Positions 43,364-45,606 of a DNA stretch of 64,000 nt are shown here, piece by piece (the stretch's first letter is position 1; every line of letters begins with the position of its first letter). A program made the position numbers and the translations under genes. Under the pieces are notes generated by a model. That model saw only the letters and a list, made by a program, of their open reading frames with translations. It searched no databases and was not told the origin of the DNA. The stretch is from Paradevosia shaoguanensis (GTDB lineage: Bacteria > Pseudomonadota > Alphaproteobacteria > Rhizobiales > Devosiaceae): positions 3,464,501 through 3,528,500 of the forward strand of contig NZ_CP068983.1 in the NCBI RefSeq assembly GCF_016801025.1. The letters are read 5' to 3'.

Positions 43364-43522
43364 TCAGCTTTTGCGCGGGCGGAAGAAATAGAGCAGCCAC
43401 GCGAGAACATAAGCGCCCAGGCCGAGATAGACGAAGTTGCCGCCGAGGGTGAAGGCGTAGATGCCGCCCAGGGCCAGCGCGATGACGACGGTGGCGAATA
43501 GGATGCGCAAGGCGGTTTTCAT
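43364..43522 (-). CDS. small membrane protein, 52 aa
   Basis: ATG 43522 gives MKTALRILFATVVIALALGG then IYAFTLGGNFVYLGLGAYVL and AWLLYFFRPRKS: two membrane helices with a basic C-terminus. The upstream extension to 43555 is not needed. It precedes the DUF3060 gene on the same strand by 68 bases. No family is recognised. Confidence 0.65.
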   Translation of the reverse strand: MKTALRILFATVVIALALGGIYAFTLGGNFVYLGLGAYVLAWLLYFFRPRKS

Positions 43523-43600
43523 CGGGCCCCGGGTTTGCTGGCTTGGAGGAACCATCCCGCATTGGGCGCGTTTGTCAAAGGCTTCCAGACAGTCTCCCTG

Positions 43601-43698: not shown

Positions 43699-44421
43699 GT
43701 GATCGCTCGCAAGGACATTCATAATTCCAACGTGCCGGTGTTGTGCCAGAGCTGTGAAGCGCGGCACAGGGGCCTCTGCGGCGCGCTCGACCCCGAGCAA
43801 CTGAGCGAGCTGGCCAGGAGCACGCGGGTGGTCCGCCACGAGGCAGGCGAGCAGCTGGTGCGCGAGGCGGATGAGCCGGGCGCCTATGCCAATGTGATGG
43901 CGGGCGTGGTCAAACTCACCAAGACGCTGGAAGACGGGCGGCGGCAGGTCGTGGGCCTGCAATTCGCACCGGACTTTTTGGGGCGGCTCTACGGTACAGA
44001 GAACCATCTGGGGGCGGAGGCCGCTTCCGATGTCGAGCTCTGCCGCGTGCCGCGGGCGGCGCTAGAAAAGCTGGTGGGCGAGAACCCGGCGCTGGAAAAC
44101 CGGCTGATGCGGCAGGCGCTGCGCGAGCTGGACGAGGCGCGGGACTGGATCGTCACGCTCGGCCGAAAATCGGCCGAGGAGAAGGTGGCGAGCTTCCTCT
44201 ATCTCATTGCCACCCATGCCAATCCCCGGGCGGCGGAGGGCGGGCGGGCCGAATTCCGGCTGCCGCTGAGCCGCGCCGATATCGCCGATTTCCTCGGGCT
44301 GACCATCGAGACGGTTTCGCGCCAGATGACGCGGCTCAAGGGGGCGGGCGTCATCGAGATCGACAAGCTGCGCGACATTGTCGTGCCGGATCTGGCGGTG
44401 CTCGAGGAGCGGTGCGGCTGA
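43699..44421 (+). CDS. fnrL: Crp/Fnr family oxygen-sensing regulator
   Basis: This 240-aa regulator has an N-terminal cysteine cluster VLCQSCEARHRGLCG (C-x2-C-x7-C) and a fourth cysteine in DVELCRVP; these are the ligands of the oxygen-labile [4Fe-4S] cluster in Fnr. The cyclic-nucleotide-like domain is followed by the helix-turn-helix LPLSRADIADFLGLTIETVS with RQMTRLKGAGVI. The recognition helix E..SR is the Fnr form that reads TTGAT. I take GTG 43699 behind AAGGAT; an ATG at 43675 is also in frame. Its own target box lies just downstream. Confidence 0.9.
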   Translation: MIARKDIHNSNVPVLCQSCEARHRGLCGALDPEQLSELARSTRVVRHEAGEQLVREADEPGAYANVMAGVVKLTKTLEDGRRQVVGLQFAPDFLGRLYGTENHLGAEAASDVELCRVPRAALEKLVGENPALENRLMRQALRELDEARDWIVTLGRKSAEEKVASFLYLIATHANPRAAEGGRAEFRLPLSRADIADFLGLTIETVSRQMTRLKGAGVIEIDKLRDIVVPDLAVLEERCG

Positions 44422-44441
44422 GACCGCTAAATCCGATAAAT

Positions 44442-44455
44442 TTGATCTAGATCAA
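44442..44455. promoter_or_regulatory. perfect FNR box
   Basis: TTGATCTAGATCAA matches the FNR/FixK consensus TTGAT-N4-ATCAA at every position. It lies 20 bases after fnrL and 56 bases before the start of the 32-aa membrane protein. This spacing fits activation with the box centred near -41.5. Confidence 0.85.
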
Positions 44456-44510
44456 GGAATTAGATCGGGCAGGGTGCTTCAAGAAGGGCGTGATGAACCA
44501 GGAGTTTCAC

Positions 44511-44609
44511 ATGCCGTCCGACAGCATTTTCATGGTGTGCGCCATACTTACCCTATTCCTCTCCTTTATGGCCGTCTTGGGGTGGGCCTCGCTGCGGGCG
44601 GCCAAATAG
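44511..44609 (+). CDS. 32-aa membrane microprotein under an FNR box
   Basis: ATG 44511 has AGGAG about 7 bases upstream and encodes MPSDSIFMVCAILTLFLSFM then AVLGWASLRAAK, ending at a TAG followed by a strong terminator. It is one membrane helix with a short basic tail. The unit FNR box, short leader, gene, terminator is complete, so I believe it is expressed under low oxygen. Small single-helix proteins of this kind often join respiratory oxidases, but I recognise no named family. An ATG at 44493 is also in frame. Confidence 0.72.
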   Translation: MPSDSIFMVCAILTLFLSFMAVLGWASLRAAK

Positions 44610-44633
44610 ACCAACCTATCCGCGAACACTTCG

Positions 44634-44657
44634 GGCGTCCTTCGGGGCGCCTTTTTT
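44634..44657 (+). terminator. terminator of the microprotein gene
   Basis: GGCGTCC pairs with GGGCGCC (one G-T pair) around the stable loop TTCG, followed by six Ts. It closes the FNR-driven unit. Confidence 0.88.
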
Positions 44658-44696
44658 GTTGCGTGAAGGGGTGCGGGGCCGCAGCATGGAGGGATC

Positions 44697-45164
44697 ATGC
44701 TCACCAGCAGCGGGATATTGCTCTATCGGCGGGTGGCGGGATCGGTGGAGGTCCTGCTGTTGCACCATGGCGGGCCTTTCTGGGCACGCAAGGACGAGGG
44801 CGCCTGGACCATCCCCAAGGGGTTGCAAGAGCCTGGCGAGGAACCGCTGGCTGCGGCGCGTCGGGAGTTCGAGGAAGAGACCGGGCACGCCGTCGAGGGG
44901 CCGTTCATCGAGCTCGGGACGTTCAGGCAGAATGCGAGCAAGACCGTTGCGGTGTGGGCGGCCGAGGGCGCGTTCGACGTCGCGGACCTGAAGAGCAACA
45001 TGTTCGAACTGGAATGGCCGCCGCGATCGGGGCGGCGGCAGCAATTTCCGGAAGCGGACAGGGCAGGGTGGTTTTCGCCCGAGGCGGCGATACCAAAGCT
45101 CGCCAAGGGGCAGGCGCCGATCATCGGCGCGCTGCTTGAACGGCTGGGCGAAAAGCCTATTTGA
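44697..45164 (+). CDS. Nudix hydrolase
   Basis: This 155-aa protein has the Nudix box GLQEPGEEPLAAARREFEEE followed by TG, which binds Mg2+ and hydrolyses a nucleoside diphosphate linked to another group. The segments SSGILLYRR and WTIPKG fit the diadenosine-polyphosphate-like group. The substrate is unproven. GGAGG lies just before the ATG. It overlaps the 3' end of the universal stress protein gene by eight bases. Confidence 0.9.
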   Translation: MLTSSGILLYRRVAGSVEVLLLHHGGPFWARKDEGAWTIPKGLQEPGEEPLAAARREFEEETGHAVEGPFIELGTFRQNASKTVAVWAAEGAFDVADLKSNMFELEWPPRSGRRQQFPEADRAGWFSPEAAIPKLAKGQAPIIGALLERLGEKPI

Positions 45165-45606
45165 TGATGAGCACGGGCACGTTGCTGTGGGTTAGGACCT
45201 GCGTGGCCTGGCTGCCGAGCAGCAGGCGGCCGAGACCGCGGCGGCCGTGGGAGGCCATGACGATGAGGTCGGCGCCCAGTTCCTGAGCAGCGTTGACGAT
45301 GGCATCGGCGGGATATTGATTGGGAATATGGAGTGTCTTGACGTCGGCGCCGATGGCGGCGGCAGCTTCCTTGGCCTTGGTCAGGATAGCCTTGGCGGAC
45401 TCGTCGCTGGCCTTCTCGTATTCGTCGAGCGGGTTGGAATAGCCGCCCCAGCCGAAGGTGGCGTCGGTGCCGATGGAGACCCAGGGCTCGGTAACGGTGA
45501 CAACGGTCACGCTGGCGCCCAGTTTCTGGGCCAGACGTACGCCCTGGTCGATGCCCTTTGCCGCCAGATCGCTGCCGTCGGTCGCAATGAGAATATGAGT
45601 ATACAT
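45157..45606 (-). CDS. universal stress protein (UspA family)
   Basis: This 149-aa protein starts YTHILIATDGSDLAAKGIDQ and ends with the nucleotide-binding loop MASHGRRGLGRLLLGSQATQ and NVPVLIIK, the G-x9-GS pattern of the ATP-binding Usp group. Such proteins often respond to oxygen limitation or starvation; its closeness to fnrL is suggestive, but I see no FNR box in front of it. Confidence 0.92.
   Translation of the reverse strand: MYTHILIATDGSDLAAKGIDQGVRLAQKLGASVTVVTVTEPWVSIGTDATFGWGGYSNPLDEYEKASDESAKAILTKAKEAAAAIGADVKTLHIPNQYPADAIVNAAQELGADLIVMASHGRRGLGRLLLGSQATQVLTHSNVPVLIIK

Follow-up and report, generated by a model that had tools for sequence, protein, structure and literature searches.

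A class-wide family of putative FNR-controlled single-helix microprotein genes, with a member beside an fnrL-type gene in Paradevosia shaoguanensis

A short gene that follows an fnrL-type regulator gene in Paradevosia shaoguanensis belongs to a family that spans the class and whose switch hardly varies, a stronger observation than the initial annotation of this DNA had claimed. Judged from its sequences, the microprotein family is widespread, uncatalogued and nearly always placed behind the same switch. We consider it somewhat probable that the gene encodes an FNR-activated single-helix inner-membrane microprotein that would serve low-oxygen respiration, a reading in which we infer induction, membrane insertion, topology and partner. 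Maps of FNR-type regulons exist for several model bacteria of the class, Alphaproteobacteria, yet they may have missed one of the most constant targets on account of its length, mostly 29–46 codons. With a conserved gene, a known switch and a partner to be found, the proposal is directly testable. Members occur in Bradyrhizobium, whose life in nodules is low in oxygen.

The unit downstream of the fnrL-type gene

The gene lies in the 64,000-nt stretch of DNA that was analysed as a whole, referred to here as the window. Upstream of it, at 43699–44421 (+), a regulator gene of the CRP/FNR family was recognised by an NCBIfam match and by four candidate Fe-S cysteines (residues 16, 19, 27 and 115, numbered from the GTG at 43699), which we take to be the FNR pattern. 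It had been annotated as an fnrL directly upstream of the unit; the gene and its FNR-type cysteines are there, and its score against the NCBIfam FnrL model, 209 bits, does not reach the cut-off of 300. The regulator gene ends 20 bases 5′ of the FNR box TTGATCTAGATCAA (44442–44455, +), a perfect match to TTGAT-N4-ATCAA, and the box is followed by a Shine-Dalgarno sequence AGGAG, read at 44500–44504 (+). Box and AGGAG are as the initial annotation had described, except that the gap between box and ATG counts 55 bases, not 56. The microprotein gene (44511–44609, +) consists of 32 codons (44511–44606) and a stop, and the terminator reported at its end is likewise present as an 8-bp stem and T-run at 44633–44658 (+; hairpin 44633–44652), with a folding energy of −16.5 kcal/mol, z −3.3, and none of 200 shuffles equally good. 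Alternative in-frame starts at GTG 44490 and ATG 44493 would give 39 and 38 aa, but the family mostly begins M-P at the point of ATG 44511, and AGGAG would fall inside the longer frame.

The pattern TTGATNNNNATCAA has a single perfect match in the 64 kb window, namely the box at 44442–44455, and with one mismatch allowed the count is 2 against 1.06 expected. Such a one-mismatch count is unremarkable, so that the motif carries little weight when no more than the window is considered, and the case for the box rests on relatives. Across the whole genome TTGAYNNNNRTCAA occurs at 10 places and a reversed control pattern at 4. Two of the 10 places have the exact 14-mer of the box, one at the microprotein locus and one before ccoN, where the copy (L188/L260, G000:C1:3163097–3163110) lies 62 nt before the called start.

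The frame is under selection as a protein. Between the window and a sister species we measured pS 0.61 and pN 0.20 (dN/dS 0.19, Fisher p 2e-4), and nine pooled pairs gave pS 0.41 and pN 0.13 (p 2e-20); together with the conserved residues described below, the dN/dS values reject a spurious frame. The sister species keeps the frame, the box, the fnr gene and a NUDIX neighbour, so that the pattern named in advance as a refutation, loss of the frame among conserved flanking genes, was not seen there. AlphaFold2 predicts a single helix over residues 3–31 with a pLDDT of 94, in line with the single helix originally proposed, although this result says little beyond helicity. We thus have one predicted hydrophobic helix in a selected frame. 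Net charge is negative at the N-terminus in 56 of 75 members and positive at the C-terminus in 67 of 75; by the positive-inside rule the peptide would probably have its N-terminus outside and its C-terminus inside. A test for a conserved face of the helix gave no significant result (p 0.19).

That the transcript acts as an RNA, either a small RNA or a leader with an incidental frame, is suggested by the short unit and its strong terminator, but we regard this as extremely improbable, as 18 of 20 close pairs have dN/dS values of 0.11–0.29 (the remaining two 0.31 and 0.72; not all pairs are independent), residue F16 is invariant and the start is mostly M-P. No Rfam match reached the cut-off in 44300–44760, where the one match below it (E 0.62) lies on the other strand, and a known RNA was rejected on these grounds.

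Two further frames lie near the unit: a universal-stress-protein-like gene at 45157–45606 (−; 149 aa, named by sight), of a kind that occurs in FNR regulons, and a 63-aa frame at 43364–43555 (−), upstream of and opposite in strand to the fnrL-type gene, with two hydrophobic stretches by sight.

Extent of the family and its FNR box

With the 32 residues as query, a search of 61 genomes matched the sister species (66% identity, E 7e-9) and gave weak matches besides, three of which (G010, G025, G031) begin M-P and sit 3′ of an FNR box. From this search relatives were gathered by successive protein-profile rounds. At E≤0.02, and with false matches counted, these rounds gave matches in 73 of 347 genomes from the order and in 19 of 289 from the class. 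Box-bearing members were found by these protein-profile searches in at least 14 taxonomic families (f1, f10, f13, f15, f23, f34, f35, f56, f80, f115, f119, f138, f144 and f199), and one more, f176, has a member with a degenerate box. Absences are soft, as not every candidate from the first look was scored (18 per genome in one search and 22 in another, for example); specifically, G014, counted as gene-less (E 0.038), has on reading a box and a family-like frame. Outside the class, 398 sampled genomes yielded 13 rows at E 6.8e-4 or weaker, 12 of them open frames of at least 120 aa.

Members are 29–46 residues long in 73 of 75 cases. F16 is invariant in 74 aligned rows, position 19 is F in 61 and position 23 L in 63 of the aligned rows, position 25 is W or Y in 65, P2 is present in 51 of 67 aligned members, and position 4 is E or D in 47 of 69. 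A Shine-Dalgarno-like core, by a loose pattern, stands at the equivalent place in 68 of 75 members. One Bradyrhizobium genome (G202) holds three copies of the microprotein gene (L052/L310, L199 and C125:14407–14520), with an FNR box at both copies read.

Because the profiles see the protein alone and not the box, we tallied boxes over 100 loci rows, counting a box when at most one of the eight fixed bases was mismatched and it lay 40–80 nt before the predicted start. Some places are in this tally twice and several rows belonged to the profiles that found them; L001, L012 and L192–L198 were left out as repeats. A box stood before 38 of 39 short-frame rows at E≤1e-5 (shifted positions predict 0.19), before all 6 at E 1e-5 to 1e-3 (0.05 predicted) and before 10 of the 26 with E above 1e-3 (0.24 predicted), and before none of the 29 long-frame rows, for which shifted positions predict 0.24. 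Within the 81 genomes of the organism's own taxonomic family the box was present in 42 of 46 rows at E≤1e-3, the remaining four being a box-less second paralogue group that occurs in the window genome and in the sister species. Named genomes, a set that shares at least three genomes with the earlier sample, were scanned with a profile of the Bradyrhizobium type and gave 85 loci, of which the best 80 comprise 78 from Bradyrhizobium, one from a Bradyrhizobiaceae and one from a Rhizobium; 79 of these best 80 have a box at 50–62 nt, against a background of 1 in 1416 shifted positions. Together with the 38 of 39 rows above, this count rejects a chance box.

Among the collected members the box is found in 74 of 75 at a spacing of 49–69 nt with a mode of 54–56, some starts having been chosen with the box in view, and it is thus kept at near-constant distance. 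After the box, a G at +2 recurs in 56 of 74, and 23–28 nt downstream there is a modest A/T enrichment (38 of 74 sequences have A at 24 and 38 of 74 have T at 28) of at most 0.46 bit per position. In class II FNR promoters the centre of the box lies some 41.5 bp upstream of the transcription start, and the modest A/T block would lie where such a promoter has its −10. Since it sits at this distance, we predict from class II geometry a −10 position at 44478–44483 (+) and a transcription start near 44490. In the window itself the hexamer 44478–44483 is poor as a −10, and a sigma-70 scan of 44380–44720 found no promoter.

Gene neighbourhoods, oxidases and possible function

We compared 41 gene layouts from the organism's own taxonomic family (G691 and G693 are not among them, and layouts end at contig ends). 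CydB, CydC/D, CydX, CcoQ, HemN, UspA, MetH, FolD and DUF983 neighbours were named by sight, and CydA and CcoN neighbours by sight plus match coordinates. In 11 of the 41 layouts there is a CRP/FNR-cluster gene at a distance of at most 9.5 kb, with the cysteine motif in 8 of these 11; it directly adjoins the microprotein gene in 9, where fnr comes first in two (G000, G001), the microprotein first in six, and the two genes face each other in one (G683). Outside this taxonomic family an fnr-cluster gene is directly upstream in 6 of 32 loci (cysteine motif in 5 of the 6), one of which has a HemN-like gene downstream. For the best 80 of the 85 named-genome loci, a crude test without a measured background, which asked whether any one frame in the 1.2 kb upstream combines a cysteine motif with a helix-turn-helix motif, suggested an fnr gene in 75. 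The adjacency to fnr in both gene orders and in different genera, and the fact that no single oxidase is required, could point to a membrane regulator or stress peptide whose target is FNR signalling or the membrane and not an oxidase; this we hold to be unlikely, since the protein has no soluble domain and shared control would also explain the fnr linkage. Other contexts recur in particular genera, a peptidase and an ABC transporter in 13 genomes of g15 and metH in 7 genomes of g16.

Genes resembling cydC/D or cydA are found in 10 of the 41 layouts. Genera g3, g11 and g16 have the microprotein gene within or next to fnr-cyd loci. In G003, cydA, cydB and cydX are followed by a terminator-like stretch, an FNR box and the microprotein gene; cydA is 10–12 kb away in four more g16 genomes (G660, G664, G671, G682). 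Across the taxonomic family, cydA is present in 37 of 42 gene-bearing and 19 of 39 gene-less genomes (p 2e-4, uncorrected for kinship and with soft absences). These observations would suit a subunit or assembly factor of cytochrome bd that acts beside CydX, a reading that is nevertheless rather doubtful, because cydA is missing in 5 of the 42 gene-bearing genomes, three of them at least 90% complete, the window organism's own cydA is unlinked to the microprotein gene, and CydX-like genes are already there: of 12 loci scanned, 8 have one as a separate gene. A pattern of the MWYFSW type found no CydX-like gene in G028, although a cydB-like gene is present in that genome.

A role confined to the cbb3 oxidase, as a dedicated accessory subunit resembling CcoM, would fit the identical 14-mer box before ccoN, the presence of ccoN a few kb from the microprotein gene in G031 and G693, and a size near that of CcoM. 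CcoM is a single-helix protein. This cbb3 subunit of Pseudomonas stutzeri is reported to have 36 aa, about the length of the microprotein. We think this role quite improbable, given that ccoN is missing in 14 of 42 gene-bearing genomes, including the single-contig G001, G021, G684 and G694, that genera g6, g9 and g12 carry ccoN in 17 of 18 genomes and the microprotein in none at E≤1e-3, and that the organism's own cco operon already carries a separate CcoQ-like gene, named by sight. No association with ccoN was found across the family (28 of 42 gene-bearing vs 28 of 39 gene-less genomes, p 0.64). Because the microprotein occurs without ccoN or without cydA, no single oxidase is an obligate partner; if we had to guess, we would slightly prefer cytochrome bd, or a respiratory complex that is shared, to cbb3 alone.

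No entry describing the microprotein was found in Pfam, NCBIfam, Rfam or the PDB. Scans of 42 members against Pfam and NCBIfam gave isolated matches, the best at E 6e-4 in one member and none common to more than two; a PDB profile search returned six unrelated sequences at E≤10 (best 0.12), with no relevant chain among them; and a tblastn search of plasmids with one relative as query gave no match. Comparison with CydX, which the initial annotation had offered as the model for a small oxidase partner, holds for a short single-helix peptide, tied to low-oxygen respiration and a neighbour in some genomes. It fails for identity, as the microprotein has its own box, another sequence and no fit to MWYFSW, which we take to be the CydX motif; the separate CydX-like genes in relatives' cyd operons led us to reject it. 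CcoQ/FixQ is also a small single-helix protein of an FNR-box operon, but was rejected because the FixQ model matched 1 of 42 members at E 0.16 and the gene does not occupy the ccoNOQP position. CydH/YnhF, a small single-helix oxidase subunit, is similar in size and helix, but its model matched 1 of 42 members at E 0.81, the level of chance. With CydX-like and CcoQ-like genes both separate, the microprotein is therefore a further small protein, neither CydX nor CcoQ.

Keyword searches of the open-access literature, within the main texts, brought up no recognised description of the gene, and the portions consulted of PMC9104804, PMC10117765, PMC10433244, PMC4634722 and PMC4842269 do not name it; some of the hypothetical genes in published lists of FixK2 or FnrL targets may be members. 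As described in PMC10117765, the Sinorhizobium proteins SEP6 and SEP16 are small membrane proteins with demonstrated translation, conserved in Hyphomicrobiales, and by that description resemble the microprotein.

We return to the favoured reading of an FNR-activated inner-membrane helix. As oxygen falls, FnrL with a [4Fe-4S] cluster would bind the box and activate a class II promoter whose box centre lies about 41.5 bases before the mRNA start; the short mRNA, ending at the terminator, would encode the 32-aa inner-membrane helix, probably oriented with its N-terminus out and C-terminus in, which may be a small subunit with an accessory or assembly role in the respiratory membrane at low oxygen. 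The box and its spacing, the frame and its selection as protein, the terminator, the conservation, the ccoN box and the fnr linkage support this reading; the lack of a ccoN association, the kinship-uncorrected cydA association, the peptidase/ABC context in g15, the non-significant helix face, the box-less paralogues and the absence of a promoter call in the window count against it. The cbb3-only and cytochrome bd proposals are special cases of it, and an oxidase subunit is plausible. A wider formulation, which we put forward tentatively as a possibility, is an FNR-controlled low-oxygen component of at least 14 families that acts on a shared respiratory complex or in membrane oxygen signalling, whichever high-affinity oxidase is present. 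The initial interpretation is partly supported: an FNR-box gene for a single-helix microprotein is borne out, as the box is conserved, the protein is selected and the 14-mer is shared with ccoN, and an accessory role at an oxidase is one that it may have.

A second, box-less group

The box-less paralogues form a second single-helix group, characterised by the pattern GWGML.T.GL and the absence of an FNR box (L131, L161, L162 and L163); L131 (G000:C1:142191–142319) and L161 (G000:C1:73710–73823) lie in the window genome. This group is probably related to the family, because the box-less paralogue L090, which was included in profile A4 and removed for A8, still scores E 2.8e-7 with A8. Two of the second-group genes lie directly 3′ of a DUF983-like gene.
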